DNA from: Mesorhizobium loti
GTDB taxonomy: Bacteria; Pseudomonadota; Alphaproteobacteria; Rhizobiales; Rhizobiaceae
Reading direction: 5' to 3'
DNA length: 64,000 bases
Assembly: GCA_002356515.1 (NCBI GenBank)
Contig: AP017605.1
Span: forward strand, 6,681,020 to 6,745,019
A program made the position numbers and the translations under genes. This document shows positions 3,016-26,184 of the stretch, piece by piece. Numbering within the stretch: the stretch's first letter is position 1; every line of letters starts with the position of its first letter. Under the pieces are notes generated by a model. It was not told the origin of the DNA and searched no databases. It worked only from the letters and a program-made list of their open reading frames with translations.

Positions 3016-3026
3016 TTTGGCGGTCC

Positions 3027-4040: not shown

Positions 4041-4053
4041 GAGAGTTCCTTCA

Positions 4054-6068: not shown

Positions 6069-7582
6069 GCGGGCTCCAGCTGCGGCGAAACACCCGCCAT
6101 CATCATGCCGATCCTGTCTTCGTCGGCATCGTCGCCGGCGACTTCGCCCATGATCCGCCCGTTGAACATCACCAGGATGCGGTCGGCGAGCGCCGCCAGT
6201 TCGTCGAGCTGCACGGAAATCAAGAGGATGGCCCGGCCGGCCGCGCGCTGGCGCATGATCTCGTCATGGATGGCCTCCTGGGCGCCGATATCAACGCCGC
6301 GCGTCGGCTGGTCGATCAGCAGGAAGTCGGCGCCATTGGTGAATTCGCGCGCCAGCACGACCTTCTGGATATTGCCGCCGGAAAGCCGCTTGACGGCATC
6401 GCCCGCTCCTTGCGCACGAATGTCGAAGCTCTTGATCAGCGCTCCGGCATTTCCGCCGATCGCCTTCCAGTCGAGCACACCGTTGCGGCTCCACGGCGCG
6501 CGGTGCTGGCGGCCCATCAGCGTGTTTGCCGCGATCGACGCATTGCGATCGACCCCGCGCACCATGCGATCGCCAGGGACATGGGCAAGGCCGGCTTCGC
6601 GGATCGCGGCGGGCGAGAGGGTGGTGAGGTCCTGGCCTTTCAGCCAGGCTTCGCCATGGCTTGCCGGCCTCAGGCCCGAAAGCACTTCCGCCAGTTCCGT
6701 CTGCCCATTGCCAGCGACGCCCGCAATTCCCACCACTTCGCCGGAGCGGACAGTGAAACTGACGTTGCGAAGAGCCGGCAGACGGCGATCATCCCGCGCC
6801 CACAGATCCTTGACCTGAAGGACCACGTCACCCTGCAGCGCCACGCGTGGCCGCCGGTCGAAACTGACTTCGCGGCCAACCATCATGCGCACCAACTCGT
6901 CCTTGTTGAGTTCCGACGTCGGGCGGGTCGCCACCTTCTTGCCGTTGCGCAGCACCGTCACCGTGTCGGACACCTCCATCACCTCTTCCAGATGATGCGA
7001 GATGAAGATCACGGTCATGCCCTCGGCCACGAAGCTGCGCAGTGTCTGGAACAGTTCGCGGCTTTCCTGCGGCGTCAGCACGGCGGTCGGCTCGTCGAGG
7101 ATGATGGTGCGGGCGCCGCGCACCAGAACTTTCAGGATTTCGATGCGCTGCTCGATGCCGACCGAGAGCAGGCCGACGCGCTCGGTCGGATCGACATGCA
7201 GCCCGAAACGCTTCGACAATTCCTCAGTGCGCGCGATCTGCGCGGCATGGTCGATCAGCCCGTGACGACGGATCTCCATGCCGAGAAAGACATTGTCGGC
7301 GACCGATAGCGAAGGCACCAGCTTGAAGTGCTGGTGCACCATGCCGAGCCCTGCCTTGATGGCGGCGGCCGGGTCGGCGACCACTATCGCTTCGCCATTC
7401 AGCCGGATCGAGCCTTCGTCCGGCTGGAGGAGGCCGAACAGGATGTTCATCAGCGTCGTCTTGCCGGCGCCGTTCTCGCCGATAATGGCGTGGATTTCGC
7501 CCCGGCGCACGGCAAGGTCGATGCCGTCATTGGCAACAAAGGCGCCAAAACGCTTGGTGATGCCTGTCAACTCGACGGCCAT
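6065..7582 (-). CDS. Nucleoside-type ABC importer ATPase, two fused nucleotide-binding domains
   Basis: A 505-residue ATPase with two ABC domains in one chain, as in simple-sugar and nucleoside importers. Domain 1 has Walker A GENGAGKTT and Walker B TIILDEPTA; domain 2 has a degenerate P-loop GVAGNGQTE, signature LSGGNIQKVV and Walker B LLIDQPTRGVD. The weak second P-loop is normal in this family. A GTG at 7657 would add 25 residues, but it lies inside a perfect 17-bp hairpin and the extra residues resemble nothing in the family, so ATG 7582 (MAVELTGITKRFG) is preferred. The gene is separated from the receptor gene by that hairpin, which probably lowers its expression relative to the receptor. 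Confidence 0.9.
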   Translation of the reverse strand: MAVELTGITKRFGAFVANDGIDLAVRRGEIHAIIGENGAGKTTLMNILFGLLQPDEGSIRLNGEAIVVADPAAAIKAGLGMVHQHFKLVPSLSVADNVFLGMEIRRHGLIDHAAQIARTEELSKRFGLHVDPTERVGLLSVGIEQRIEILKVLVRGARTIILDEPTAVLTPQESRELFQTLRSFVAEGMTVIFISHHLEEVMEVSDTVTVLRNGKKVATRPTSELNKDELVRMMVGREVSFDRRPRVALQGDVVLQVKDLWARDDRRLPALRNVSFTVRSGEVVGIAGVAGNGQTELAEVLSGLRPASHGEAWLKGQDLTTLSPAAIREAGLAHVPGDRMVRGVDRNASIAANTLMGRQHRAPWSRNGVLDWKAIGGNAGALIKSFDIRAQGAGDAVKRLSGGNIQKVVLAREFTNGADFLLIDQPTRGVDIGAQEAIHDEIMRQRAAGRAILLISVQLDELAALADRILVMFNGRIMGEVAGDDADEDRIGMMMAGVSPQLEPA

Positions 7583-7654
7583 CGCTACTGTGCTGTGAAG
7601 GGTCGGGGACCCCGGCGCGTTCGACACGATGCTCTCGCAGATTGGCAGACTGGA

Positions 7655-7690
7655 CACTGATCCGCCGCGGCAAGCCGCGGCGGATCAGTG
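7655..7690 (-). terminator. Perfect 17-bp hairpin between receptor and ATPase genes
   Basis: Bases 7655-7671 and 7674-7690 are exact inverted complements with only two bases between them, giving a very stable GC-rich stem in the leftward mRNA. There is no long U-tract after it, so partial termination or protection of the receptor message against 3' exonuclease is more likely than full termination. Such hairpins commonly set a high receptor-to-transporter ratio in ABC operons. Confidence 0.75.
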
Positions 7691-7725
7691 TAGCGCGTTC
7701 TTGGGAGGGATGCGCTGTTGCTGGC

Positions 7726-8730
7726 TTACTTCGCCTTGGCGATCACGATCTTGCCGTCGAGGATGCCCTTCTTGATCTCGTCCAGCTTGGTGGTCACGTC
7801 GGCCGGGATCTTCGGCGCGATGTCGTCGCAGACTTTGAACTCGACGCCGCCCGACGCCAGGTCGAAGGTGCGGGTGCCGGCGGTGACCTTGTTGCCCCCG
7901 ACCTCGTCCTTGATCAGCGTGTAGACGGCGATGTCGCCGCGCTTCAGCATGCTGCCGAGCACATTTCCGGGAGCCGTGCCGCACATGTCGATATCGACGC
8001 CGATCGAATATTTGTCGGCGGCGGCACTTGCCTGCATCACGCCTTCGCCGGTCGGGCCGGCGACGTTGTAGACGATGTCGGAGCCCTGGCCGTAGAGCGC
8101 CTGGGCAAGCTCGCTGCCCTTGGCCGGATCATCGAAGGTGCCGGCGAAGACGGAGTTCACCTTCACATCGGGCGCGGCGTATTTGGCGCCCTGCTCGTAG
8201 CCGCCGAGGAAGTTGCGGATGACCGGGATGTCGCGGCCGCCGACGAAGCCGATTGCCTTGCCGTCGCCGATCTTGGGAAATTCGCTGCCCTTGGCCTCGA
8301 TCATGCTGGCCAGCGCGCCGGCGACGAAGGAGCCCTGTTCCTCGGCGAAATTGGCATAGATCATCTTGGGATTGTCGAGCACGCCATCGATGAAGACGAA
8401 GCGCTGGTCGGGGTATTCCTTGCTGACCTTCTGCAGCGAATCCACCAGTTCCCAACCCATTACGAAGATGAGGTCGTACTGCTTGCCCTTGGCGAGGTTC
8501 TCGAACTGCTCCTGATAGTCCAAAGCGCGATTGCCGGTGTCGACCAGCTTGAGATCGATGCCGAAATCAGCCTTGGCCTTGTTGAGGCCGTTGACGATCG
8601 AAACGCCAAAGCCCTGTGCGAAATATCCAGAGATGGCGGCCACCGAAACCTTGGTCTGTGCGGCGGCCGATCCCAACGAAACAGCCAGCATCGTGCCGGC
8701 CATAAACAAACTCTTGAGCGCCCTTGTCAT
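7726..8730 (-). CDS. BMP-family periplasmic nucleoside-binding protein
   Basis: A 334-residue solute receptor of the basic membrane protein (BMP/Med) family. Residues 1-24 form a Sec signal peptide ending in SAAAQ. There is no lipobox cysteine, so it should be a soluble periplasmic protein and not a lipoprotein. Family features include GFGVSIVNGLNKAKADFG, YDLIFVMGWELVDS, IYANFAEEQGSFVAGALA and the hinge IGFVGGRDIPVIRNF. BMP receptors with this permease and ATPase arrangement bind purine or pyrimidine nucleosides. It is the first gene of the leftward operon and has its own strong promoter at 8827-8855. Confidence 0.92.
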   Translation of the reverse strand: MTRALKSLFMAGTMLAVSLGSAAAQTKVSVAAISGYFAQGFGVSIVNGLNKAKADFGIDLKLVDTGNRALDYQEQFENLAKGKQYDLIFVMGWELVDSLQKVSKEYPDQRFVFIDGVLDNPKMIYANFAEEQGSFVAGALASMIEAKGSEFPKIGDGKAIGFVGGRDIPVIRNFLGGYEQGAKYAAPDVKVNSVFAGTFDDPAKGSELAQALYGQGSDIVYNVAGPTGEGVMQASAAADKYSIGVDIDMCGTAPGNVLGSMLKRGDIAVYTLIKDEVGGNKVTAGTRTFDLASGGVEFKVCDDIAPKIPADVTTKLDEIKKGILDGKIVIAKAK

Positions 8731-8810
8731 GTTATTCCCCTTCAGCTTTTTTCAGCTTTTGAAGCCACGCCTTGACCATCCCCCACATATCGCCGGAATG
8801 CCGGCGAGTT

Positions 8811-8855
8811 CGTTGATGGTCATATGAGTTTAGGAGCGGCTAAACAGGCTGTCAA
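8811..8855 (-). promoter_or_regulatory. Promoter and shared 17-bp operator of the nucleoside-import operon
   Basis: On the minus strand TTGACA (8855-8850), a 17-base spacer and TAAACT (8832-8827) form a near-consensus sigma-70 promoter. Directly after the -10 lies TCATATGACCATCAACG (8827 down to 8811), where a bound repressor would block initiation. The identical 17-mer occurs upstream of the sugar-binding protein gene at 19895-19911, and close variants are at 12661-12677 and 12819-12835. Confidence 0.75.
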
Positions 8856-8910
8856 TCGTCATCCGATGCGGTTTTCTTAGGCCCGTCATCCGCGTCCTTC
8901 ACCTCCGTGC

Positions 8911-8952
8911 TTGACAAATATCGCGATGCATAATTGTTGATGCTCTAACGAA
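8911..8952 (+). promoter_or_regulatory. Possible promoter and degenerate operator for the DUF1185 pair
   Basis: TTGACA occurs at 8911-8916, followed downstream by GTTGATGCTCTAACGAA near 8936-8952. The latter resembles the GTTGATGCTCATACAA site at 12662-12677 but lacks one base and the second half is poor. No convincing -10 at standard spacing is visible. It is listed as a weak relative of the shared operator. Confidence 0.35.
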
Positions 8953-8985
8953 TTTTCGTGAGTGACGGGACGAAGGATACGCGCA

Positions 8986-9570
8986 ATGCCAGCTGTGGTG
9001 GTCAGGAAATTTCTGGTCCAGGTCGAAGAGATCTTCCATGAGGGCGGGCCGCCCGCAGCGCGTCCGCCCAAGCGCGGCGCGATCGTCGCCGTCATCGCCA
9101 ACCCTTTTGCCGGACGCTACGTCGAGGAGATCACCGGCTTCATGGAGGATCTTAAACCGCTTGGCCTCGAAATGGCGCGGCGCCTGATAGACGCCATGGG
9201 CGATGGCGTCGCCGCCGTCGAAGGCTATGGCAAGGGCGCCATCGTCGGTGCCGCCGGCGAGCTTGAACACGGCGCGCTGTGGCACAATCCCGGCGGCTAC
9301 GCGATGCGCGAACTTCTTGGCGACGCCAAGGCGATCGTGCCCTCGACCAAGAAGGTCGGCGGCCCCGGAACGCGCATCGACATTCCGATCACCCACATCA
9401 ACGCCTCCTATGTGCGGAGCCATTTCGACGCGATCGAGATCGGCGTTGGCGATGCGCCGCGCAGCGACGAGATGGCGGTCATCCTGGCGATGACGACAGG
9501 TGCGCGCGTTCATGCGCGGGTCGGCGGCCTGGCTGCGGCCGACATCAAGGGCGAGGACGGATTGCGATGA
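8986..9570 (+). CDS. DUF1185 / 'amino acid synthesis' family protein, copy 1
   Basis: A 194-residue soluble protein of the DUF1185 family, whose biochemical role is not known to me. Recognisable blocks are the N-terminal VVRKFLVQVEEI, the AVIANPFAGRY segment, GKGAIVGAAGELEHGA and IVPSTKKVGGPGT. ATG 8986 is chosen over GTG 8962 because AAGGA sits eight bases upstream. It shares about half of its residues by eye with the next gene and overlaps it by ATGA, so the two are translationally coupled and probably form a hetero-oligomer. The surrounding genes encode cyclic-amide and amide hydrolases. Confidence 0.85.
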   Translation: MPAVVVRKFLVQVEEIFHEGGPPAARPPKRGAIVAVIANPFAGRYVEEITGFMEDLKPLGLEMARRLIDAMGDGVAAVEGYGKGAIVGAAGELEHGALWHNPGGYAMRELLGDAKAIVPSTKKVGGPGTRIDIPITHINASYVRSHFDAIEIGVGDAPRSDEMAVILAMTTGARVHARVGGLAAADIKGEDGLR

Positions 9571-10151
9571 GCCTGGAAATCCGCCGCATCATCACTATTG
9601 TCGAGGAAACCCGGATCGAAGGCGGCCGCCCCGTCGATCCGCCGACGCGGCGTGCCGCGGCGATCGCGGTGATCCGCAACCCCTATGCCGGCACCTTTGT
9701 CGAGGACCTGTCGGGGCTAAGCGATATCGGCGAAGCGCTGGGCGATATCTTGCCCAGGCGCGCGGTGGCAGCCCTTGGCATTGCCGGCAGTGAGGTCGAG
9801 AGCTTCGGCAAGGCTGCTGCCGTCGGCGCCGACGGCGAGCTCGAACATGCCGCCGCCATCCTCCACCCAACGCTCGGTGCTCCGTTCCGCGATGTGCTGG
9901 GCAAGGGCGCCGCGCTCATTCCCTCATCGAAGAAGCGCGGCGGCCTCGGCGTGCCGCTCGACATTCCGCTCGGCCACAAGGATGCGGCGAAGGTGCGCAG
10001 CCATTTCGACGGCATGGAGGTCCGCGTCCCCGATGCGCCGCGCGCCGACGAGATCGTCGTCGCCATCGCCGTCACCGATTCCGGCCGGCCGCACCCGCGC
10101 GTCGGCGGGCTGACCAAGGATAAGATCGTCGGCAAGGACGGCGTGAGTTGA
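9567..10151 (+). CDS. DUF1185 / 'amino acid synthesis' family protein, copy 2
   Basis: A tandem paralogue of the preceding gene and of equal length, 194 residues. Matching blocks are IRRIITIVEETRIEGG, AVIRNPYAGTFVEDL, GKAAAVGADGELEHAA and LIPSSKKRGGLGVPLDI. The start ATG overlaps the TGA of copy 1. The gene converges on the enamidase-like gene with only 15 bp between the stops, so it is a two-gene unit divergent from the nucleoside importer. Conserved Gly, Lys and Glu-His residues shared by both copies hint at a common active site, but no catalytic assignment is made. Confidence 0.85.
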   Translation: MSLEIRRIITIVEETRIEGGRPVDPPTRRAAAIAVIRNPYAGTFVEDLSGLSDIGEALGDILPRRAVAALGIAGSEVESFGKAAAVGADGELEHAAAILHPTLGAPFRDVLGKGAALIPSSKKRGGLGVPLDIPLGHKDAAKVRSHFDGMEVRVPDAPRADEIVVAIAVTDSGRPHPRVGGLTKDKIVGKDGVS

Positions 10152-10166
10152 TGCCTGCGAAGGCCG

Positions 10167-11360
10167 CTACGCGGCCCTGACCTCTGGCACTCGCAGAGCC
10201 GGCGGGGTGTTGCGGCTGCGGCCGGTGCGCACCTCGCCGTCGATGACGACCATACCGATGCCCGGCAGATTGCCGAGCGCCACGCTGTCGAGCAATCCGT
10301 CGCCGGCACCGCCCATCGCCTGGTCGATGAAGATCAGATCGGCTGCACGGCCGACCTCGATGATGCCGCGATCAGCCAGTCCGCGCACACGCGCCGTGTT
10401 GCCGCTGGCAAGGCAGAACGCCACTTCCGGCGCGATGCCGCCCAGCGAAGCCAGCATGGTCAGCGTCCTCAAAATGCCGAGCGGCTGGACCCCGGATCCG
10501 GCCGGGCTGTCGGTGCCGAGGACGACGCGCGAAAGCTCGCCGCGCTGCCTCGCCAGATCGAGCACGAACAGTCCGGTGCGCAGATTGCCGTTGTGGACGA
10601 TTTCCAGCGCGCGCGAGCCGTTCTCGCAGATCTGCCGGATTTCGGCTTCGGGAAGTGCCGTCGGTCCGCCATTGACGTGGGCAACGATATCGGCGTCGAC
10701 CTCCAGCACGACATCGGCACCGATGCGGCCGGAGCCGGGCAGGGACGGACCGCCCGTATGAGTCATCGAGGTCATGCCGTATTTGCGCGCCCAGGCGATC
10801 ATCTGCCGGCCGGTCGGACCATCCTTGACGCCGCCAAGCCCGACCTCGCCGATGAGTGTCACGCCGGCTTCGGCGAGATAGCGGAAATCATCCTCGACCA
10901 GGCCGTGCTCCAGGATGGGCGCGCCGGCCAGGATCTTCATGCCGTTGGGACGGAAGTTGGAGAAGGTCCGCTGCGCCGCGATCGCCAGCGCCTTCAGCCC
11001 GACCAGGTCGCGCGGGCGTCCCGGCGTGTGGACCTCGCCCGCCGAGATGATGGTGGTAACGCCGCCATGCACGGTGGAATCCATCCAGCCGATCTGGTTC
11101 TGCCGCGGCGTCCAGTCGCCGGCCACCGGATGAGCATGGTTGTCGATAAGCCCTGGCGCGACCGCGCAGCCCATCGCATCGATGATCGTTGCCGTGTTGC
11201 CACCGTCGACATCGCCGGCCTTGCCTATGGCTGATATGCGCCCGTCGGCCACGACGATGGTGTCGGCATCGAGGATCGGCTGGCCGAGGTCACCGCTCAG
11301 AAGGAGGCCGATGTTGCGGACGATGAGCGTGTTGGCAGACGACTTGGGGTCGGACGGCAT
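10167..11360 (-). CDS. Enamidase-like metal-dependent amidohydrolase
   Basis: A 397-residue cyclic-amide hydrolase of the amidohydrolase superfamily. The N-terminal metal motif is GLIDNHAHP; IGEVGLGG supplies the bridging Glu that enamidase uses in place of carbamylated Lys; later ligands are the His in MTHTGG and AHVNGG and the Asp in GTDSPAG. The block HGGVTTIISAGEVHTPGRP and the C-terminal RSRNTPPA closely follow, from memory, enamidase of Eubacterium barkeri, which opens the ring of 6-oxotetrahydronicotinate. No nicotinate hydroxylase or reductase is nearby, so the substrate is probably another lactam or enamide. It is last in a cysteine hydrolase-MarR-amidohydrolase operon. Confidence 0.82.
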   Translation of the reverse strand: MPSDPKSSANTLIVRNIGLLLSGDLGQPILDADTIVVADGRISAIGKAGDVDGGNTATIIDAMGCAVAPGLIDNHAHPVAGDWTPRQNQIGWMDSTVHGGVTTIISAGEVHTPGRPRDLVGLKALAIAAQRTFSNFRPNGMKILAGAPILEHGLVEDDFRYLAEAGVTLIGEVGLGGVKDGPTGRQMIAWARKYGMTSMTHTGGPSLPGSGRIGADVVLEVDADIVAHVNGGPTALPEAEIRQICENGSRALEIVHNGNLRTGLFVLDLARQRGELSRVVLGTDSPAGSGVQPLGILRTLTMLASLGGIAPEVAFCLASGNTARVRGLADRGIIEVGRAADLIFIDQAMGGAGDGLLDSVALGNLPGIGMVVIDGEVRTGRSRNTPPALRVPEVRAA

Positions 11361-11401
11361 CGGATCTCATTTCTGCTGGTATGGAAAGGTCCAGGCGCGG
11401 C

Positions 11402-11950
11402 CTATTTGCCGCCGTCGCCATTCGATGGATCGTCGTCATTGATGCGCTTGAGCAGGCGAAGCAGCGTCGCCTGCTCGGCGGGTGAAAGCGGTGACAGGAA
11501 GCGGCGCCCGACCTCGACGCTGCGTGCGAGCCGCTCGAGCGTGTATTCGGTCCCTTTCTCGGTCAGCGCGATCATCGACAGGCGCTGGTCGGTGTCGGAA
11601 GCGCTGCGCGTGATCAGGTCGTGTTTCAGCAGCTTGCGCATGACGATGCTGATGGTCGACGGATCCATCGCCGTCAGCCGGCCGAGATGGTTCTGCGAGA
11701 CCTCGCCATGTTTGAGGATCGTGGCAAGGGCCGCGAATTGGGTCGGCGACAGATCTTCGCCGGCCATGACCTGCTGGAAACGCAGCGTCGCGCGCTGATG
11801 CGCCTTGCGGATGACGTGTGCCGGGTGCTGGTCCAACGCGTAGCCGGTCTCGGCGTATCGCTCCAGAACCTGCTCGCGGGTCAGGGGTTCCGCGTTGCCG
11901 CGTTGCTGCTTCGATGTCGCGCTTTTCTCGGTTTTCTTTTCGGTCGTCAA
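11402..11950 (-). CDS. MarR-family transcriptional regulator
   Basis: A 182-residue winged-helix regulator. The wHTH spans roughly residues 65-130: LSPTQFAALATILKHGEVSQ, the recognition helix LTAMDPSTISIVMRKLLKH, and the wing SDTDQRLSMIALTEKG. It starts with TTG at 11950, supported by AGGAG seven bases upstream; no ATG lies near the N-terminus. The first 30 residues are charged and probably disordered. It is the only regulator gene between 1 and 20000, so it is the first candidate for binding the shared operator. It resembles MarR proteins controlling N-heterocycle catabolism such as NicR, but that is inference. Confidence 0.88.
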   Translation of the reverse strand: MTTEKKTEKSATSKQQRGNAEPLTREQVLERYAETGYALDQHPAHVIRKAHQRATLRFQQVMAGEDLSPTQFAALATILKHGEVSQNHLGRLTAMDPSTISIVMRKLLKHDLITRSASDTDQRLSMIALTEKGTEYTLERLARSVEVGRRFLSPLSPAEQATLLRLLKRINDDDPSNGDGGK

Positions 11951-11995
11951 ACCGGACTCCTGTTGCCTGTCTCGGATGCCGCTGGCTTTGGTAGC

Positions 11996-12640
11996 TCAAG
12001 CCGCGACTTCGATCGGTTGCAGCGATGTCCCGTCGCGAAGCGCCGCGACGACATCAGCCGAATCGCTGACCACGCCGAAATGCGTCGCTATGTCGTAGAG
12101 CGAGCTTTCCTGCTCGCGGGGTCCCGTCGCCGCGCAGCAATCGCTCGGCACCACCACTTCATAGCCCTGGAAAAATGCGTCGTGGACGGTTGATCGCACG
12201 CAGATGTTGGTGACCACGCCGAAGATGACCAATTGGTCGATCTGCATGTCCTTCAGTGTCAGGTCGAGGTCGGTCTGGAAGAAGGCCGAGTAGCGCCGCT
12301 TGATGACGTGGATCTCGTCATCGCGGGCGCCAAGATCTTCGATGATCTCCGGTCCCCAGCTGCCTTCCAGGCAATGTGGCGTGCGCTTCACCCATTCGCG
12401 CTCGCGGCGCATGCCCGGCCGGTGCGCATCGTGAACCCAGATCACCGGCACGCCGCTCGCGCGGGCCGCCTCTATGACGGCCAGTTGCGGCCCGACCAGC
12501 GTCTCGTATCCAGGCAGGACCATGGCCCCGCCCGGTTTGCAGAACTCGTTGACCATGTCGATGACGATAATGGCCGCGCGCTGCGGATCAAGGCGCATCG
12601 CGTCGTCGTGCCGATGTGAGGAAAAAACGTCCACGGCCAT
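11996..12640 (-). CDS. Isochorismatase-like cysteine hydrolase (amidase)
   Basis: A 214-residue protein of the isochorismatase/nicotinamidase superfamily. The catalytic triad is visible as Asp in IIVIDMVNEF, Lys in VIKRRYSAFF and Cys in GVVTNICVRSTVHDA. Enzymes of this fold hydrolyse linear amides, carbamates or ureido compounds (RutB, NicF, N-carbamoylsarcosine amidase). AAAGGAG lies six bases before ATG 12640, which decides the start against longer frames. It heads the leftward operon with the MarR and the enamidase-like hydrolase, so it may cleave the linear amide made by ring opening. The actual substrate is unknown. Confidence 0.88.
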   Translation of the reverse strand: MAVDVFSSHRHDDAMRLDPQRAAIIVIDMVNEFCKPGGAMVLPGYETLVGPQLAVIEAARASGVPVIWVHDAHRPGMRREREWVKRTPHCLEGSWGPEIIEDLGARDDEIHVIKRRYSAFFQTDLDLTLKDMQIDQLVIFGVVTNICVRSTVHDAFFQGYEVVVPSDCCAATGPREQESSLYDIATHFGVVSDSADVVAALRDGTSLQPIEVAA

Positions 12641-12660
12641 GGCGGACTCCTTTGGTCGAT

Positions 12661-12702
12661 CGTTGATGCTCATACAAAAAACCTTGGCGGGTGCCAAGTC
12701 AA
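12661..12702 (-). promoter_or_regulatory. Promoter and shared operator of the cysteine hydrolase-marR operon, with extra palindrome
   Basis: On the minus strand a -35-like TTGACT occupies 12702-12697, and the operator variant TTGTATGAGCATCAACG runs from 12677 to 12661. Between them is a perfect inverted repeat, CTTGGC (12683-12688) and GCCAAG (12693-12698), which could be a second, autoregulatory site for the MarR protein. The only in-frame ATG inside the operator (12673) lacks a ribosome-binding site. Confidence 0.65.
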
Positions 12703-12788
12703 TCCCGTTCGACGCAAAGCAGTAGTCACCGGCCTTGCGCATGCCGCGCTGACAAGCGTATGCGCTATTTGTCCAGCCGGATATGGCC

Positions 12789-12835
12789 TTGACAAGGGGC
12801 GGCAATCATGGACTCAATTTGTATGACCATCAATG
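12789..12835 (+). promoter_or_regulatory. Promoter and shared operator of the epimerase-SDR unit
   Basis: TTGACA at 12789-12794 is followed 24 bases later by TTGTATGACCATCAATG (12819-12835), a variant of the shared operator in the same orientation relative to the gene. The -10 is poor (around CTCAAT, 12814-12819). The first gene starts at 12875. Confidence 0.65.
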
Positions 12836-12874
12836 ATATCCAAGCCTCTGTGCTTGCGAGCCGAGGGCCGTGAT

Positions 12875-13729
12875 ATGAGGGCGATCGTCACCGGTGCCAG
12901 TGGCCTGCTTGGCCGCCACGTTGCCGAGGCCCTGCTTGCCGCCGGCCATGACGTGCTGGGCATCGATACTGTGGCGCCGGTCGGGGGCGCATGGCGTCAG
13001 GTCACCGCCGACCTGACGGATCTGGGATCGACCCTGCAGCTGGTGCGCGATTGCGATGCCGTCGTGCATGTCGCGGCCATTCCGCGGCCGACCGGCCGGG
13101 CCGGCGGCGAGGTCTTCAAGACCAATGTCGCCACCGCCTACAATGTCGTCGAGGCCGCCGCCACGGCTGGCATCAGCCGCTTCATCTATGCCTCGTCCTT
13201 CAGCGTCTTCGGTTATCCCTTCTTCGAGAAGGCTGTCACCCCGCCCTATCTGCCGGTCGACATGAACCACCCGGTCGGCGCGCAGGACCCATACGGCCTG
13301 TCCAAATGGCTGGGCGAGGAAATCGTCGACGCGGCGGTGCGCCGCGGCGCCTTTTCGGCGGTCAGTATCCGCATGCCATGGATCCAGACCGCGCAATCCT
13401 TCTTCGCCGGCGTCGGTCCGCGCCGCGCCACCGCCGATAGCGCCCGCGACCTGTGGGCCTATCTCGATGCGCGCGATGCCGGGCAGGGTTTTCTACGGGC
13501 GCTCGAATGGCAAGGCGACGGCCATCTGCGCGTCCTGCTCAGCGCCGCCGACACCTTCATGGAGGAAGAGACCGAAGCGCTCGTTCGCCGGGTGTATCCA
13601 GGCGTCGCCCGGTCGCGGCCGATCGCCGGTTTCGGCTCCGTGCTCGATACGGTCCATGCGCGCGAGACGCTCGGCTTCGCGCCGGAGCATTCATGGCGTT
13701 CCTATCGAAAGCCGGAGACCAAGGGATGA
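12875..13729 (+). CDS. NAD-dependent epimerase/dehydratase family protein
   Basis: A 284-residue extended short-chain dehydrogenase. The N-terminal Rossmann motif is VTGASGLLGRHVAEALL and the catalytic pair appears as Tyr and Lys in DPYGLSKWLGEE, with the upstream Ser in YASSFSVFG. The family acts on nucleotide sugars or free sugars and lactones; some members are uronate or aldose dehydrogenases. GAGGG lies seven bases before ATG 12875. The stop overlaps the next SDR start by ATGA. Its promoter carries the shared operator, so it is expressed with the sugar importer on the opposite strand. Confidence 0.85.
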   Translation: MRAIVTGASGLLGRHVAEALLAAGHDVLGIDTVAPVGGAWRQVTADLTDLGSTLQLVRDCDAVVHVAAIPRPTGRAGGEVFKTNVATAYNVVEAAATAGISRFIYASSFSVFGYPFFEKAVTPPYLPVDMNHPVGAQDPYGLSKWLGEEIVDAAVRRGAFSAVSIRMPWIQTAQSFFAGVGPRRATADSARDLWAYLDARDAGQGFLRALEWQGDGHLRVLLSAADTFMEEETEALVRRVYPGVARSRPIAGFGSVLDTVHARETLGFAPEHSWRSYRKPETKG

Positions 13730-14532
13730 AGCGGTTCGACCAGAAGAAAATCCTTGTCACCGGCGGCGCCGGCGCCATCGGCAGCGCCGCGGTCCGACGT
13801 TTCCTCGACGAAGGCGCGCGCGTCGCCATCGTCGACCGCAACGGCGCGGCGGCCCGCGAGCTGGCTCGTTCTCTCGGCGACAGCACCATAGCCATCGAAG
13901 CCGACGTCACCGACGAGACAAATGTGCGCAACGCCGTCACAACGACCGTCGAGACATTCGGCGGGCTGGATGTCGTGTTCAACAATGCCGGCATTTCGGG
14001 TGTCGTCGCTCCCGTGCATGAATTGCCCGTCGAGGATTGGGACACCATCATCCGCATCAATCTGCGCGGCATCTTCCTCGTCCTGCAGGCGTCGCTCCAG
14101 GCGATGATCAAGGCCGGGGCCGGCGGCTCGATCGTCAATATGGGATCCTCCATGGCCGGCTGGGACGTGCTTTCGGGCGGCGCCGGCTATGTCGCCTCGA
14201 AGCATGGCGTGGTCGGGCTGACGCGGGTCGCAGCGCTCGATGCCGCGCCCTATGGCATTCGCGTCAATGCCATCTGTCCCGGCGTGATCGAGACGACGCT
14301 CGGCGTGCCGGCTTCCGGCGACGGCGATTTCAAGAGCAGCGTCCAGCATTTCGCCGACCGTATCCCGTTGCGCCGCATCGGCCAGCCGGACGATGTCGCG
14401 ACCGCGGTGGCGTTCCTTGCCTCGGACGAGGCAAGGCATGTCACCGGCGTCGACTGGCTGATCGACGGCGGCCAGACCTTGCAGAGCTGGGCCAACGCGC
14501 CCGCCGGCAACGCGTTTCCGAAGTATCGCTAG
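13726..14532 (+). CDS. Short-chain dehydrogenase/reductase (SDR)
   Basis: A classical 268-residue SDR that oxidises or reduces a hydroxyl group with NAD(P). The cofactor motif is TGGAGAIGSAAV, followed by NNAG in FNNAGISG, the catalytic Ser in VNMGSSMAG and the Tyr-Lys pair in GYVASKHGVV. An acidic residue after strand 2 (VDRNG) suggests preference for NAD. ATG 13726 overlaps the epimerase stop, so translation is coupled. The gene converges on the Gfo/Idh gene with a 34-bp gap. A polyol or sugar-lactone step is likely from context; no specific substrate is claimed. Confidence 0.88.
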   Translation: MKRFDQKKILVTGGAGAIGSAAVRRFLDEGARVAIVDRNGAAARELARSLGDSTIAIEADVTDETNVRNAVTTTVETFGGLDVVFNNAGISGVVAPVHELPVEDWDTIIRINLRGIFLVLQASLQAMIKAGAGGSIVNMGSSMAGWDVLSGGAGYVASKHGVVGLTRVAALDAAPYGIRVNAICPGVIETTLGVPASGDGDFKSSVQHFADRIPLRRIGQPDDVATAVAFLASDEARHVTGVDWLIDGGQTLQSWANAPAGNAFPKYR

Positions 14533-14566
14533 GAAACAGCCACGGCTCGCGTAGGCGGATTCACCG

Positions 14567-15637
14567 TCAGAGCCTTTTGGGCGGCATCGCCTGGATGATC
14601 CGGACCGCAAGATCGAGATCGGCCAGCCCGCCCGAAAGCGGCGTGCGCGGTTTTGCTCCGGCCAGGATACAGTCGGCGAAATGCTGCCATTCACGGCGAA
14701 ACGAGGTGTCGGGGATACCCGGTAGGACGCGCTCGGACGCGGTTTCGCCTGTTGCCTCGCGCAGGCGCACCGTTGCCGAGGCGTTGCGGAAATAGGGGTT
14801 CTGGAATTCGATCCGCACCTCGTCGCGCTCGCCATGGACATGGATCCACTCATCCCACCATTCATACTGGGCGAGCGCCATGTCGAACAGGCAAGGAACG
14901 CCGCCATAGTCAAGCACGGCCAGCAACTGGTTGGGTCCGGTCTGCTGCGCATGGACGACGCGGTCCGGCGTGCCGAACGCGCCGCGCATGACGGCAAGAT
15001 CGTGGCTGCTGAGGCCGAGCAGCAGCAAATAGAGGTCGCGATAGCCGGCATGATCGGCACCGAGTGCCGCCTCGACGCGCCGCGCGACCGCATCGCGTCC
15101 CGCCGCCAACATTTCGGCGGGCACGTCGGCGATCCGGGTCTGCGTGTAGAGCTTGCCATAGCGGTCGAAGCGGCCGGCGAAATCATGGACGTGGATCGAC
15201 TTCGGCCGGCCGATCGCGGCGATGCGCTCCAATCCGGTTTCGTAGCCGGGATCGTAGAATTTCATGTAGCCGACAAGGGCGACGAGGCCGCTCCGCTCGG
15301 CCTGCTCGACCAGCGGGCGCGCCTCCTGCGGCGTGAAGGCGAGCGGCTTCTCGACGATCAGGTGCTTGCCGGCACGGATTGCGTCGGCGACCATCTCGCC
15401 ATGGTCGTAGGTGCAGATCACCACCGCATCGACATTCGGATCGGCGAGCAAAGCGCGATGATCCGTATAGCGTGCCGCGACACCGTAATGCTCTGCGACC
15501 GCGTCGACCGTGCCGGGCGAGATGTCGCACAGGGCGGCGATGCGAAACGCCGGCAATTCCATGAGATAGGGCAAATGCATCAGCTGGGCGATCTCGCCGC
15601 AACCGATGACGCCAACGCCAATAACCCGATCCTGCAT
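14567..15637 (-). CDS. Gfo/Idh/MocA-family oxidoreductase
   Basis: A 356-residue NAD(P)-dependent sugar or inositol oxidoreductase. The Rossmann motif is VGVIGCGEIAQLMHLPYL and the family's catalytic EKP motif is present in LIVEKPLAF near residue 97. The C-terminal beta-sheet domain includes GERDEVRIEFQNPYF. It is the last gene of the leftward binding protein-isomerase-permease-permease operon; its ATG follows the permease stop with one base between. Members of the family oxidise hexoses, inositols or amino sugars at a ring carbon. Confidence 0.88.
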   Translation of the reverse strand: MQDRVIGVGVIGCGEIAQLMHLPYLMELPAFRIAALCDISPGTVDAVAEHYGVAARYTDHRALLADPNVDAVVICTYDHGEMVADAIRAGKHLIVEKPLAFTPQEARPLVEQAERSGLVALVGYMKFYDPGYETGLERIAAIGRPKSIHVHDFAGRFDRYGKLYTQTRIADVPAEMLAAGRDAVARRVEAALGADHAGYRDLYLLLLGLSSHDLAVMRGAFGTPDRVVHAQQTGPNQLLAVLDYGGVPCLFDMALAQYEWWDEWIHVHGERDEVRIEFQNPYFRNASATVRLREATGETASERVLPGIPDTSFRREWQHFADCILAGAKPRTPLSGGLADLDLAVRIIQAMPPKRL

Positions 15638-15638
15638 G

Positions 15639-16532
15639 TCAGCCCTTCACGGCGCCGGCGGTGAGGCCGGCAATGAACTGCCGTTGCATGGCGAGGAAGA
15701 CGACGATCACCGGCAGTGTCGTGATCGTCAACGCGGCGAAATAGAGTGTCCAGAGCGAATCGTACTGCTGGAAGAAGCTGACCAGGCCGAGCGGGATGGT
15801 CTGCACCGATGGGTCGCGCAGCAAGAGGAAGGCGAGGAAGAAATCGTTCCAGATCTCGATGAAGCCGAAGATCAGGATCAGCGCGACGCCCGGCCGCACC
15901 AGCGGCAGCATGATGTGGATCAGGATTTCGAGCCGGCTCGCGCCGTCGACGCGCGCGGCATCTTCGAGATCGGCGGGCAGCGTGACGAAGAAGCTACGCA
16001 GGATGAAGACCGACAGCGGCAGCGACGTCGCCGCATAGACGAAGGCGATGCCGAGCCGGTTGTTGATCAGGCCGAGGTCGCGCGCCACCATGAACAGCGG
16101 AATGGCCATCACCTGCGGGGGCACCAGCATGGCGGCAACTGCCACGGCCAGCACGACGCCGCGTCCGGGAAACCGCAGCCGTGCCAATGCGTAGGCGCAG
16201 GGCGTTGCCACGACAACGAGGATGATCAAGGCCGAGCCGGTGACCAGCACGGAGCTGACGATGCGCGATCCCATGCCGGCGATGCGCCAGGCATCGGCAT
16301 AGTTCTGCAGCACCAGGCTCGACGGCGGGCCCCAGATGTTGCTCAGCATCTCCTCCTTGGTCTTGAGCGAGCCGAACAGCACCCAGAGCAGGGGATAGAG
16401 CGTCTCGATGAGCACGACGGCGAGCGCGGCGTAGATGCCCGCGACTTCCAGCAGGCTGCGCGTGCCAAGGCGCCGGGGACGGCGGGCCGCGCCGTCATCA
16501 GGGGTGAGCGAAGGCTTGGCCGCGCTGCTCAT
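15639..16532 (-). CDS. Sugar ABC importer permease (MalG-type)
   Basis: A 297-residue inner-membrane permease with about six transmembrane segments. The EAA loop that docks the ATPase is visible as EDAARVDGASRLEILIHI in the second half, followed by LPLVRPG. The N-terminal 25 residues are hydrophilic. The start overlaps the first permease stop by one base (TGATG). No ATPase gene accompanies the pair, so a shared MsmX/UgpC-type ATPase encoded elsewhere must energise it. Confidence 0.9.
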   Translation of the reverse strand: MSSAAKPSLTPDDGAARRPRRLGTRSLLEVAGIYAALAVVLIETLYPLLWVLFGSLKTKEEMLSNIWGPPSSLVLQNYADAWRIAGMGSRIVSSVLVTGSALIILVVVATPCAYALARLRFPGRGVVLAVAVAAMLVPPQVMAIPLFMVARDLGLINNRLGIAFVYAATSLPLSVFILRSFFVTLPADLEDAARVDGASRLEILIHIMLPLVRPGVALILIFGFIEIWNDFFLAFLLLRDPSVQTIPLGLVSFFQQYDSLWTLYFAALTITTLPVIVVFLAMQRQFIAGLTAGAVKG

Positions 16533-17464
16533 CAGACGTCCAGCCTCTGCCGCCGCATCAGCGCGAGCAGGCCGACGCTGGCCAGCCCGACGATCAGGAA
16601 CAGCACATAGCCGATTGCCGCGGCATAGCTCATGGCGCCGTCCTGGAAGGCCTTGCTCATCATGTAGGTGAGCACGACTTCGGTGGCGTGGTTCGGGCCG
16701 CCCTTGGTCAGCACATAGACGATGTCGAAGTTGCGCACGAAGGCGCCGGACAGGCCGAGGATGGTGTTGATGAAGACGATCGGCATCATCATCGGCACGG
16801 TGACGTGCCGGAAGCGCTGCAGCGGGCCGGCGCCGTCCATCTTGGCCGATTCATAGAGTTCCGACGGGATCGTCTGCAGCCCCGCCAGATAGATGACGGC
16901 GTGGAAGCCGAGCCATTTCCAGACGTCGACGACGATGATCGAGTAGAGCGCGATGTCGGCATCGCCAAGCCAGGACTGTTTCAGCCCGCCGAGGCCGAAC
17001 AGATCGAGCGCGCCGTTGAGCAGGCCGAACACCGGATTGTAGATCCACGACCAGAGCAGCCCGACCGCGACGAAGGACATCGTCACCGGGATGAAGGCGG
17101 CGGCACGAAAGAAGGCGCGGCCGACCAGCGCCTGGTTGAGCAGCAGCGCCAGCCCGAGGCCGAGCACATTCTTCAGGATGACGACGGCGACGACGAAGAT
17201 CAGATTGTTGCGCAGCGCGCCGAGGAAGATGCGGTCGTGCAAGAGGCGCTGATAGTTGGAGAAGCCTGCCCAGGTCGGATCGGAAAACCCGTCCCAATTG
17301 TGCAGGCTGAGCCAGAAACCGTTGACGAAGGGCCAGAGGTAGAAAAGGCAAAACAGGATCGCGGCGGGCAGGATCATCAAGAAGGCCACCGCACCATCCC
17401 CGGCAAGAAAGCGCCAGGGATCGGAACGGCCAGAAGCAGCAGCCTCTTGTGATCGCGCGGTCAT
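16532..17464 (-). CDS. Sugar ABC importer permease (MalF-type)
   Basis: A 310-residue inner-membrane permease. The hydrophobic segment LMILPAAILFCLFYLWPFV follows a short cytoplasmic tail, and SLHNWDGFSDPTWAGFSNY is the usual periplasmic block. The EAA loop reads YESAKMDGAGPLQRFRHV. ATG 17464 overlaps the isomerase stop by ATGA. The longer upstream frame is antisense-like noise and is not used. It forms the translocation pore with the following permease. Confidence 0.9.
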   Translation of the reverse strand: MTARSQEAAASGRSDPWRFLAGDGAVAFLMILPAAILFCLFYLWPFVNGFWLSLHNWDGFSDPTWAGFSNYQRLLHDRIFLGALRNNLIFVVAVVILKNVLGLGLALLLNQALVGRAFFRAAAFIPVTMSFVAVGLLWSWIYNPVFGLLNGALDLFGLGGLKQSWLGDADIALYSIIVVDVWKWLGFHAVIYLAGLQTIPSELYESAKMDGAGPLQRFRHVTVPMMMPIVFINTILGLSGAFVRNFDIVYVLTKGGPNHATEVVLTYMMSKAFQDGAMSYAAAIGYVLFLIVGLASVGLLALMRRQRLDV

Positions 17465-18399
17465 GCAGCCTTCGCGCTTTGTGGTGTCAGCACCAGCCCG
17501 AGCGTGTCCCTGACATAGGCGATGCTTTCCAGCGTGCTTTGCTCCGCCGTCTTCTTCGACGCATCGAGCTCGATGATGGCGAGACCATCGTAATTTGCCT
17601 CCAGCAGCACGTCGACGATGCCGGCAAGATCGACCACGCCGGCGCCGAGTTCGCAAAAGGCGCCATAGCGATCATAGCCCTTTAGCGCCGGATCCACCCT
17701 GGTGTCCTTGAAATGCATGTAGCGCACGGCCGAGATGTAGGTTCGAACCGCGTCGACCGGATCGGAATTGGTGTGGGCAAGATGCGCCGGATCGATGCAG
17801 AGGCCGGCGAGATCGGTATCGAGCTCATCCATCATGCGGTCGAGCTGGTCGCGGCGCTCGATGAAGGTGTCGAGATGCGGGTGATAGACCGTCTCGATGC
17901 CGAGGTCCTTTGTCCGCCTGCCGATATCTTCGAGCGCGCGGCAAAAGGCGCGATAGTCGTCGGCGGTGTGTGGGCCGGCGATCGCTTCCGAGGGGCCGCC
18001 ACCGAGAACCAGCACGGGTGAGCCGAAACCCTTCAACATCCGGGTCAGCGCCACCAGCACGTCGCGCTCGTACGGCCAGGCGACGGGGTTGGTGAAGATC
18101 GCATTGACGTAGAAGGAGGAGAGCTTGATGCCATGCTCGCTCTGGCCTTCCGAGAGCAGCGCGTAACGCCGCAGAATGTCGGTGTCGGTGGTGACCCCCA
18201 TTGGCGGCTGGTTGCCGAGCTGCATGTATTTGCGGGCGTACTGGTCCGACAGGCTGGTGAAGGCGAGGATCTCGAACCAGCCGAAACCCTGTTCGGCGAG
18301 GAACTTGATGGCCGGCCTGAGCGGCAGGCCGGTCAGGTCCCAGCTGTTCAGGTGATAGCCGATCGAGAAGCGCTGCCGTTCGGCACGGGTTTGCGTCAT
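17461..18399 (-). CDS. Sugar phosphate isomerase/epimerase (xylose isomerase-like TIM barrel)
   Basis: A 312-residue TIM-barrel enzyme of the AP-endonuclease-2/xylose isomerase superfamily, which includes inosose dehydratase IolE and ketose epimerases. Metal-ligand candidates in order are Glu in GIETVYHPHLDTF, Asp/His in CIDPAHLAHT, His in MHFKDTRVD and Glu in AIIELDASK. GGAGA lies eight bases before ATG 18399. It is the second gene of the sugar operon, directly after the binding protein, so it probably isomerises or dehydrates the imported sugar or cyclitol. Confidence 0.87.
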   Translation of the reverse strand: MTQTRAERQRFSIGYHLNSWDLTGLPLRPAIKFLAEQGFGWFEILAFTSLSDQYARKYMQLGNQPPMGVTTDTDILRRYALLSEGQSEHGIKLSSFYVNAIFTNPVAWPYERDVLVALTRMLKGFGSPVLVLGGGPSEAIAGPHTADDYRAFCRALEDIGRRTKDLGIETVYHPHLDTFIERRDQLDRMMDELDTDLAGLCIDPAHLAHTNSDPVDAVRTYISAVRYMHFKDTRVDPALKGYDRYGAFCELGAGVVDLAGIVDVLLEANYDGLAIIELDASKKTAEQSTLESIAYVRDTLGLVLTPQSAKAA

Positions 18400-18493
18400 G
18401 TGGTTTCTCCGATTGATGAGGCTGCCCGAAACGGGCGGCCTCTGTTTGTCGTGCCGCGCGGATCGGCCTGGCTGGATGCGCGCCGGGAAGCGC

Positions 18494-19846
18494 TTACTTC
18501 GGCGGCCAGCTGCCCTGCGCCTTGAGGTCGTCGAAGGTGGTCTGGATCGAGGCGGCGGCATCCTCGGGCGTCGTCGTGCCGCCGACGATGCCGGCGATGG
18601 CCGAGGCCGTGGCTGACGCGACTTCCGATGGCCAGATCCAGTCGAGGAACTTGATGGTGCTCGGGAAGGCTTGCTTGCGCAACTCGACGGCGTAGGCATC
18701 CTCGACCTGCGGCACGCCCTTGATCGAGGCGGCGATCGGCTGCTCGGGGGCAAGATAGAGCGTCGCCACCTCCGGCCGTGTCAGATATTCGATGAACTTG
18801 ACCGCGGCATCGAGTTTTTCGGGCGGGATCGACGAGGCGACGCACATGCCGTTGTCGGCGCCGCCACCATGGCCCGGCGCGCCCGGTGTGCCGTCCATTT
18901 TCGGAAACGCGAAGACGCCCCATTTGAACGCCTTGACGCTGGTCTGCAGCGACGGGATTTCCCAGGTGCCACCATAGTACATGGCGCTCTTGCCGGCGGC
19001 GAAGGCTGCACGCATGCCGTCCTGGTCGACCGAAAGCGAATCCTTGGACAGGATGCCGTCGTCGACCCATTGCTTGATCAGCTTGAAGCCTTCGACATCG
19101 GGCGCGTCGGTGAATTTCGCCGTGCCTTCGAGATTCTTCTGCGTCTTGCCGATGGCATCGCCCGAGGCCTGCGAGAAGGTTTCGAAGTACCACATCGGCC
19201 ACATCACGGTGTTCGAGCCCTGATGCAGCAGCGGGATCACGCCCGCCGTCTTGAACTTCGGCACGGCTGCCTTGAGATCGTCATAGGTCGGCGGAACGGC
19301 GATGCCGAGCTTCTGGAAAAGGTCGACATTGTAGAAAATCGTCGACGTCGAGAGCGTCGAGATCGGCACGCCATAGACCTGGCCGCTGATGGTGAAGGCG
19401 CCCAGCGCTGCGGCGTCGATCCGGTCCTGGAAAGGCTTGATCTTGTCGGTGATCGGCATCACCAGCTTGCGCCGGACATAGGCGCCATTGGTGTAGAAGG
19501 CCGGGCAGGCGATCAGGTCCATTTCCTGGTTCGCAAGCTTGGCGGTCATCAGGCGCTGGATCGAATCGGTCTGCGGCCCCTGGGCATCCCACTCGACAGC
19601 GGTGACGTCGGGATTGGCCTTGAGGAAGCCGTCGATGACCTGCTGCTGGATTTTCTTCTGCTCGTCCGGCGCTTGGCGCGGCGCGAGTTCGTCAAGCGCC
19701 GAGCCGCCGAAAACCTTGAGCGTGATCCCGTCGGCATGGCTGACGCCAGGCAGTGTGATCAGGCCGAGGCCTAGCAGTACGGTGGCAAGGATGGAGCTGG
19801 CGGGGCTTTGTTTGGAACGATGGGTCACTCTCTGCTGAACGGGCAT
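18494..19846 (-). CDS. Extracellular sugar-binding protein (family 1) of ABC importer
   Basis: A 450-residue periplasmic receptor. The signal peptide extends to about residue 38 (hydrophobic core ILATVLLGLGLITL, cleavage near SHADG). Family-1 features include GAYVRRKLVMPITDKIKPF, GVPISTLSTSTIFYN, AAFAAGKSAMYYGGTWEIP and the C-terminal FIEYLTRPEVATLYL. The start is ATG 19846 with AAAGGAG seven bases upstream; a longer frame to 19891 has no ribosome-binding site. It is the first gene of the leftward sugar operon and carries the shared operator in its promoter. Ligand specificity is not readable. Confidence 0.9.
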   Translation of the reverse strand: MPVQQRVTHRSKQSPASSILATVLLGLGLITLPGVSHADGITLKVFGGSALDELAPRQAPDEQKKIQQQVIDGFLKANPDVTAVEWDAQGPQTDSIQRLMTAKLANQEMDLIACPAFYTNGAYVRRKLVMPITDKIKPFQDRIDAAALGAFTISGQVYGVPISTLSTSTIFYNVDLFQKLGIAVPPTYDDLKAAVPKFKTAGVIPLLHQGSNTVMWPMWYFETFSQASGDAIGKTQKNLEGTAKFTDAPDVEGFKLIKQWVDDGILSKDSLSVDQDGMRAAFAAGKSAMYYGGTWEIPSLQTSVKAFKWGVFAFPKMDGTPGAPGHGGGADNGMCVASSIPPEKLDAAVKFIEYLTRPEVATLYLAPEQPIAASIKGVPQVEDAYAVELRKQAFPSTIKFLDWIWPSEVASATASAIAGIVGGTTTPEDAAASIQTTFDDLKAQGSWPPK

Positions 19847-19894
19847 CTGGCTTCTCCTTTCGCCAATGCCGAGGGGCAACCTCGGGACCAAGAT

Positions 19895-19940
19895 CGTTGA
19901 TGGTCATATGATCTTGGTCGCCTGTTATGATTTTTGTCAA
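19895..19940 (-). promoter_or_regulatory. Promoter and shared operator of the sugar importer operon
   Basis: On the minus strand TTGACA (19940-19935) is followed 23 bases later by TCATATGACCATCAACG (19911 down to 19895). That 17-mer is identical to the one in the nucleoside-importer promoter 11 kb away. The -10 is less clear, near AAGATC. The rest of 19941-20161, up to the stop of the next gene, shows no coding sequence. Confidence 0.7.
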
Positions 19941-21454: not shown

Positions 21455-21611
21455 CGTCAAAGTGACCGGAAGGGACGCAGGTCAGAGAGGCTGGGTGGAA
21501 GCATTGAACGAAAGATGATGTGCCACCTGCGAGAAACTCCATGAGGGAACGACAGACCGTCCAATATCGTGCCCGGTGCGCGCCAGGCAATTCAGCATGG
21601 CTTTCGGGAAA

Positions 21612-22715: not shown

Positions 22716-22866
22716 GAGCGGGCTCCTTTGCTGTTGGCCAAGCGACTTCCGTCTTCGGCCGGGTTCTCAAACACCGGGTTTCGCTGCATCGTCCTGGGGC
22801 GAGCCAGGTCGCCGACGGGCGCGCCGGTGAAGCGAATTTTGTCAGGAGTAGCGTAGCCGAAACTGT

Positions 22867-22885
22867 TTGTATATGCTTGTATATG
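22867..22885. promoter_or_regulatory. Paired TTGTATATG half-sites in the hisC-like/SDR divergent promoter region
   Basis: TTGTATATG occurs at 22867-22875 and again at 22877-22885, spaced by exactly ten bases, one helical turn. It lies between divergent genes starting at 22715 and 22934. A near copy is at 26979-26997 before the TauA-like gene. HutC/GntR-family operators are known to be TGTATA-type, so the HutC-like protein at 26185 is the likely ligand. The rest of 22716-22933 shows no gene. Confidence 0.65.
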
Positions 22886-22933
22886 TAACCTGATCTGATA
22901 GTCTCGGTAACCGACACCGGCAAGGAGGATTAC

Positions 22934-23707: not shown

Positions 23708-23789
23708 GGCGGCTTGCTACAGGTTCGAAATCAAAGTCTTCCGCACTGTGACCGGTCGGCACATTGCGTTCCAACAAAGAGGAATACCC

Positions 23790-25112: not shown

Positions 25113-25121
25113 ACGGAGACG

Positions 25122-26153: not shown

Positions 26154-26184
26154 TTTCCGATAAATTGCCGGAAAGGATTTTGAA

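Follow-up and report, generated by a model that had tools for sequence, protein, structure and literature searches.

A Predicted MarR Operator Joining Nucleoside Import, an Enamidase Homologue, and a Sugar-Type Cassette in Mesorhizobium loti

Introduction

BpsR of Bordetella is a MarR-family protein that, according to PMC6837509, acts on nicotinate genes and answers to 6-hydroxynicotinate. On the enzyme side, KpiC, a distant (28%) relative of enamidase, opens 3,4-dihydroxypyridine by other chemistry, as described in PMC7356986, and the DUF1185 family, whose structure was solved in 2010, is given only a suggested role in amino-acid metabolism in PMC2954203. In this work, we analyse a stretch of 64,000 nucleotides of Mesorhizobium loti (GCA_002356515.1, contig AP017605.1, positions 6,681,020 to 6,745,019; hereafter the window), in which an initial annotation, made from the sequence letters, had reported one 17-bp promoter motif shared by a nucleoside importer, an amidohydrolase cassette, and a sugar cassette. 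We find that this motif is very probably the operator of the MarR-family protein encoded at 11402–11950, which would repress five nearby transcription units, its own among them. A search of a literature collection found nothing on this regulon.

The evidence supports five units with 18 genes forming one regulon under the predicted operator, the operon limits being predicted; the regulated operons extend to 2083, and the full unit is thus 2083–19911. As a system, a local MarR regulon is nothing unusual; this one is of interest for the pathway that it sketches out. The shared operator shows which transporters and enzymes belong together and thereby narrows the substrate to a nucleoside-like compound, the base of which would be opened by an enamidase-type reaction. 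The result is a complete, testable regulon with a proposed regulator, an operator, and 18 genes, DUF1185 among them.

Results and Discussion

The Motif in the Window and in the Genome

A direct check of the letters bears out four 17-mers at the coordinates and strands first reported (operators 1–4, Table 1), with 13 of 17 positions invariant and the variation confined to positions 2, 3, 9, and 16. Each copy lies, as had been described, 19–24 nt after a TTGACA-like −35 box (TTGACA; TTGACT at the cysteine hydrolase), and when the site is taken as a 21-mer, which begins 2 nt before the 17-mer, the spacing from the end of the −35-like box to its start is 17–22 nt. These four are all the window matches at up to 3 mismatches, compared with a mean of 0.12 and a maximum of 1 in 100 dinucleotide shuffles. 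The motif is not a background feature of the genome either: in all 8,452,151 bases (4 contigs), the degenerate pattern TNRTATGASCATCAAYGA has zero-mismatch matches only at the four window sites, with three additional matches carrying 2 mismatches, and the reversed control gives 1 match at up to 2 mismatches.

A profile of 21 positions (R1), built from 38 of 53 distinct sites, gave five matches at E ≤ 1 in the same genome, all within the cluster; weak sites could have been missed, because 150 of 2319 first-look candidates were scored and the window's own sites are part of the profile. The fifth match is the degenerate copy suspected by the initial annotation near 8936, which proves to be real. 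It is conserved before the DUF1185 pair in relatives, where it is inverted relative to its gene as it is in the window, and it scores 19.4 bits, vs. 15.5 bits for the next window match, with a matrix made from the four sites.

Conservation in Relatives

The comparison covered 24 relatives of the MarR gene (L008–L031; 25 were found, and L032, from Treponema with 34% identity, was dropped), 30 enamidase-gene regions (L075–L104) from 28 of the 37 family genomes carrying enamidase (G000 is the window, and eight were left out), three plasmids (L105–L107), and three more stretches (L109–L111). The same-DNA pairs L018/L075, L024/L077, and L081/L111 stay in the site counts. The closest relatives of the window MarR protein come from Mesorhizobium strains.

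A matrix scan showed that the site precedes the same genes in the promoters of relatives. At least 20 bits are reached by 155 sites in 61 loci, 154 of which precede cluster genes (duplicates included): the importer (40), DUF1185 (36), the epimerase (31), the cysteine hydrolase (31), and the sugar binding protein (16). One site counted with DUF1185, at 8837 in L109, fits by position and strand a divergent periplasmic-binding-protein gene, and the single site off the pattern lies within the enamidase coding sequence of L100. The gene order differs in Bosea (L028), Mesorhizobium sp. BR1-1-16 (L029), and Kaistia (L030), where the sugar binding-protein gene is divergent from a run of importer, nucleoside hydrolases, cysteine hydrolase, MarR, and enamidase, and the DUF1185 pair stands apart, yet the site is kept at all three promoter regions. 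In L083, L084, L086, and L087, one site is followed in the same orientation by the binding protein, the TIM barrel, two permeases, Gfo, the epimerase, and the short-chain dehydrogenase (SDR). That the units are reshuffled while the site is kept argues strongly for a functional grouping. The initial annotation had held that the motif joins genes that would not otherwise be grouped; they are a less arbitrary set than this implies, as the genes recur together, reshuffled within one set.

These arrangements also bear on whether the MarR protein binds the sites but the sugar cassette stands apart as a system of its own and has only borrowed the operator. Such borrowing would agree with several loci (e.g., L011, L013, L015, and L027) in which the other sites are kept and the mapped region has no cassette. 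However, the cassette shares one site and one orientation with the epimerase and SDR genes in the four loci just named, and in L028, L029, and L030 it diverges from the nucleoside operon with a site of its own, so that we consider a separate cassette rather unlikely. In L018, L021, and L022, short Gfo gene matches (32–44 residues) adjoin the SDR gene, which suggests that these strains lost the sugar cassette by deletion.

The MarR Gene Tracks the Site

The prediction of a single regulon is supported by the exclusivity of the motif genome-wide, by its conservation before the same units, and by its co-occurrence with the MarR gene, which is, as first described, the only regulator gene that the window has between the sites. 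The loci in which the MarR shares at least 50% identity with the window protein number 43 (40 without duplicates), and a site of at least 20 bits is present in 39 of these 40, vs. 1 of 18 enamidase or nicotinate loci without this MarR, where the one site is inside a gene (Fisher p = 1.6e-12, with related genomes treated as independent). At the genome level, a protein search of 34 genomes found this MarR in 18 at 54% identity or more (E ≤ 8.6e-56), the next best match anywhere being 41%. R1 matches of at least 16 bits occur in 16 of the 18 genomes with this MarR and in 0 of 15 without (33 scanned), a comparison that is a consistency test, since some of the scanned genomes contributed sites to the profile. 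A control factor common to the genus was considered and rejected, as the same-genus genomes G073, G155, and G217, which lack this MarR, have no R1 match.

A less circular case is genome G074, where three clustered R1 matches on another contig, at a locus outside the training set, flank this MarR (66–70%). Besides the cysteine hydrolase (75%) and the DUF1185 pair, the stretch has an importer of the branched-chain type instead of the BMP importer, and the enamidase was not found in it; the site thus stays with the MarR even where the transporter is a different one. In an exact-pattern scan of 297 genomes, 10 gave matches; 9 of them have the enamidase gene, and the tenth is G026.

The MarR gene itself lies behind operator 2, which points to autoregulation. 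Sites of at least 20 bits before cysteine hydrolase–MarR operons number 31 (window and duplicates included), and all 31 have a TTGACA-like box. The sequence DPSTIS, present in 15 of 16 rows of this MarR vs. DxATxK in 9 of 10 other MarRs at enamidase or nicotinate clusters, is taken as part of the putative DNA-reading helix.

Operator Shape and Alternative Readings

The operator looks like a 20-bp imperfect dyad with the ideal form ATTGTTTG-N4-CAAACAAT. Near-perfect dyads are found in relatives (AATTGTTTGAGCACAAACAAT in L080 and GATTGTTAGAGTACAAACAAT in L092, with similar ones in L109 and L111), and the window sites are less symmetric versions of these. A TTGACA-like box (at most 1 mismatch) lies 12–25 nt upstream in the gene direction at 150 of 154 sites. 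Counted in the motif orientation over a slightly different range, the box is found at 114 of 150 sites, vs. about 5% of random positions; this figure is lower mainly because the DUF1185 sites are inverted, which is what a dyad operator allows. In the importer promoters of L024, L025, L076, L077, L078, and L082 (five distinct, as L024 and L077 are the same DNA), the site has a further copy, in most cases weaker, that lies exactly 20 bp upstream on the side of the −35 box.

The overlap of the operator with the −10 and start region suggests repression. In the proposed mechanism, a MarR dimer would sit on the dyad and block RNA polymerase, thereby repressing the importer with the nucleoside hydrolases, the DUF1185 pair, the cysteine hydrolase–MarR–enamidase operon, the epimerase–SDR operon, and the sugar-type cassette, until it is released by an intermediate of the pathway, probably a small carboxylate of cyclic or heteroaromatic type.

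Several observations weigh against this assignment. The average site is asymmetric, with two centres tying at 0.423, the GntR-type centre at 0.396, and a mean over centres of 0.264; the symmetry of the 20-bp dyad (0.754, four pairs) is below that of the GntR-type box (0.821, three pairs), and a strict TTGT-N10-ACAA is present in 16 of 56 distinct sites. Among the loci with this MarR, L079 (genome G218, MarR 54%) is an exception with a best site of 14.1 bits, and genomes G118 and G218, both with the MarR, have only weak R1 matches of 14.4 and 12.7 bits. Among the genomes without it, R1 matches at E ≤ 1 occur in 5 of 15, the best at 15.4 bits. Genome G026 contains a match to the operator matrix at 26.8 bits (L066, 1499–1519) but has no enamidase match and no MarR match at E ≤ 1e-15; this may be an isolated match that arose by chance. 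Four of the 18 MarR-less loci (L093, L094, L095, and L110) sit in genomes that have this MarR elsewhere, and hence represent a second enamidase or nicotinate cluster outside the regulon rather than a genome without the regulator. Many loci are closely related, so the counts are not independent, and the MarR and cysteine hydrolase genes stand side by side in the mapped MarR loci, which leaves phylogeny unable to separate the two. Finally, the protein may activate rather than repress.

The initial annotation had proposed the local MarR as the regulator while noting a resemblance to FadR-type GntR boxes; the MarR stands as the best candidate by locus and by genome, and the GntR reading is the weaker of the two, although the three-pair symmetry of its box scores higher. 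In the latter, a FadR-type GntR regulator encoded elsewhere would bind TNGTNNNACNA boxes (presumably the FadR-type consensus) inside the motif, with the MarR as a bystander. The sequence TTGTATGACCA at 12819 fits this box, as do 27 of 56 distinct sites under a strict reading, and a more distant DUF1185–amidohydrolase pair on a Mesorhizobium plasmid (L108) adjoins a GntR gene. However, the L108 stretch has no site above 13 bits, 29 of the 56 sites break the box, and conservation runs 8 bases beyond it. Position 10 of the motif is C in only 51 of 79 distinct flanked sites, whereas A16 and A19, both outside the box, are invariant. T2, T5, A16, and A19 occur together in 54 of the 56 sites, an extent of conservation that favours the dyad. 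The site also tracks the MarR gene, whereas no gene between the sites in the window encodes a GntR (no search for GntR genes was made elsewhere in the genomes), and the GntR at 26185 scores above cut-off as the histidine repressor HutC. On the 56 distinct sites, the FadR/GntR box was judged the poorer model, its symmetry scores notwithstanding, and we regard GntR control as improbable. A special promoter element in place of an operator would fit the overlap with the −10 region and the fixed distance from TTGACA, but this is very improbable and was rejected, given the inverted sites before the DUF1185 pair, matches in the M. loti genome reported only at this cluster, near absence from clusters without this MarR, and the second copies 20 bp upstream in importer promoters.

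A 9-bp perfect inverted repeat at 19887–19918 (ACCAAGATC / GATCTTGGT) overlaps the ends of the sugar-cassette operator, with its axis one step off the operator core. The repeat is kept in L008, L009, L014, L016, and L031, and has one mismatch in L012, L017, and L023.

Comparison of the MarR Protein with BpsR and Other Relatives

The window MarR is related in sequence to BpsR (6pcp/6pco, 52 bits). With the BpsR chain numbered as in PMC6837509, which the four residue types fit, Tyr15, His23, and Arg26 align with Y37, H45, and R48 of the window protein, whereas His32 aligns with A54. Across the rows of this MarR (three duplicate loci included), Y37 is present in 43 of 43, H45 in 41 of 43, and R48 in 43 of 43, and the BpsR-type ligand set is left incomplete by an A at the fourth position (A54) in 43 of 43. 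The three kept contacts and the altered fourth suggest that the ligand is probably a related but different carboxylate. A separate BpsR-like MarR has H at the fourth position in 9 of 10 rows and stands at reductase clusters in 9 of 10 stretches. Orthology of the window MarR with BpsR was rejected on the basis of the fourth residue and of this separate BpsR-like protein, one copy of which is in the M. loti genome. At 1340 of L107, a Sulfitobacter plasmid, a dyad AATTGTTTGACAGCTAACAAT (19.2 bits) adjoins the BpsR-like MarR gene; the operators of the two MarR groups may be related in their core.

Two other structures are also related to the window MarR. PcaV (4fht), which we take to be a Streptomyces protein answering to protocatechuate, has near its N terminus an HPxHxxR that aligns with H42-P43-x-H45-x-x-R48, but it gives only 51 bits. 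The best match among solved structures is an unnamed MarR (2nnn, 79.7 bits), the organism of which is given in PMC6837509 as Pseudomonas aeruginosa.

Genes of the Regulon

Table 1. Predicted operators and regulon genes in the window. ABC, ATP-binding cassette; NAD, nicotinamide adenine dinucleotide.
Feature	Position	Strand	Remarks
Operator 1	8811..8827 (21-mer 8809–8829)	−	Precedes BMP-type importer operon
Operator 2	12661..12677	−	Precedes cysteine hydrolase–MarR–enamidase operon
Operator 3	12819..12835	+	Precedes epimerase–SDR operon
Operator 4	19895..19911	−	Precedes sugar-type ABC cassette
Operator 5, degenerate	8933..8953	−	Precedes DUF1185 pair, inverted to gene; TTGACA 8911–8916 upstream in gene direction
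Nucleoside hydrolase	2083..3030	−	PF01156; NCBIfam models below cut-offs
Nucleoside hydrolase	3027..4040	−	PF01156; PDB 6ba0
ABC permease	4054..5037	−	PF02653
ABC permease	5025..6068	−	PF02653
ABC ATPase, two ABC stretches	6065..7657	−	PF00005
BMP/PnrA-type binding protein	7726..8730	−	PF02608; PDB 7x0r, 6shu
DUF1185/AA_synth protein 1	8962..9570	+	PF06684
DUF1185/AA_synth protein 2	9567..10151	+	PF06684; PDB 2qtp
Enamidase homologue (amidohydrolase of the initial annotation)	10167..11360	−	PDB 2vun, E = 7.7e-111, residues 12–393 of 397
MarR-family regulator	11402..11950	−	PF01047, 44.3 bits (cut-off 24.6); second gene of its own target operon
Isochorismatase-fold cysteine hydrolase	11996..12640	−	PF00857; RutB model below cut-off; PDB 8bkd
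NAD-dependent epimerase/dehydratase family protein	12875..13729	+	PF01370
Short-chain dehydrogenase (SDR)	13726..14532	+	PF13561, PF00106
Gfo/Idh/MocA oxidoreductase	14567..15637	−	PF01408
Sugar-type ABC permease	15639..16532	−	PF00528
Sugar-type ABC permease	16532..17464	−	PF00528
Xylose isomerase-like TIM barrel, distantly IolE-like	17461..18399	−	PF01261; IolE model below cut-off
ABC solute-binding protein	18494..19846	−	PF13416; PDB sugar-binding relatives

The importer has the make-up of BMP/PnrA-type nucleoside importers, i.e., the binding protein, two permeases, and a double ATPase, and a nucleoside is its predicted substrate. The amidohydrolase aligns over nearly its full length, with one single-residue gap, to the enamidase of Eubacterium barkeri (2vun), and the HxH, GEVGLG, HTGG, and HxNGG motifs as well as the aspartate of GxDxPxG line up between the two; we assume that its metal-binding residues are those of the amidohydrolase superfamily. 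In contrast to the E. barkeri enzyme, the window homologue belongs to a gene group that includes a BMP importer and nucleoside hydrolases. The homology suggests an enamidase-type activity, i.e., hydrolysis of 6-oxo-1,4,5,6-tetrahydronicotinate, as a prediction for which the different chemistry of KpiC calls for caution. For the cysteine hydrolase, the nearest models are RutB and biuret hydrolase.

A Possible Pathway

The same enamidase and DUF1185 pair adjoin a gene annotated as 6-hydroxynicotinate reductase on plasmids of Sulfitobacter (L105) and Comamonadaceae (L106), a name taken from the record annotation for which NCBIfam gives no match, and on the L107 plasmid they adjoin a reductase homologue annotated as hypothetical. 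A molybdopterin oxidoreductase is also present in L105 and L107. The position of the DUF1185–enamidase genes beside reductase genes indicates that the pair is probably part of nicotinate-type ring breakdown. A reductive nicotinate cluster (6-hydroxynicotinate reductase with Mo-hydroxylase) gave no tblastn match in L075–L089 or L092, and in the 33 genomes tested, a homologue of the reductase at E ≤ 1e-20 is absent from 9 of the 18 with this MarR and present in 15 of the 15 without it. In the M. loti genome, the reductase homologue lies 2.2 Mb away (L110, 6954–14084; C1, ~4.48 Mb) with one DUF1185 gene, UPF0280, a molybdopterin oxidoreductase, and a BpsR-like MarR; the enamidase has no match in that stretch, and the window copy is its only match in the genome at E ≤ 1e-60.

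From their family assignments, the regulon genes look like a set for importing and breaking down a pyridine-type nucleoside, and the enamidase homology suggests catabolism of a nicotinate-like one; the simplest reading would be that an enamidase-type step opens the base of a nucleoside. More speculatively, and with little confidence on our part, the genes might encode a catabolic route, as yet undescribed, for a ribosylated pyridine that is reduced or hydrated from the outset, e.g., a product of NAD(P)H breakdown or some other nicotinamide nucleoside. In such a route, the compound would be imported by the BMP system, cleaved by the nucleoside hydrolases, and relieved of its amide by the cysteine hydrolase, after which the enamidase homologue, assisted by the DUF1185 pair, would open the enamide ring, and the sugar would be processed by the epimerase–SDR pair and the sugar cassette. 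The nine regulon genomes without a reductase homologue fit a substrate whose ring needs no reduction.

The sugar-type cassette (14567–19846) has a binding protein and two permeases, and no ATPase gene is present among its five genes. The neighbouring set at 20162–26916, which has no operator copy, holds genes for a histidinol-phosphate aminotransferase (hisC; NCBIfam, above cut-off) and a HutC-type GntR (above cut-off), together with genes labelled by reading the sequence as flavin adenine dinucleotide (FAD) oxidoreductase-like, SDR, histidinol dehydrogenase-like, and alcohol dehydrogenase-like.

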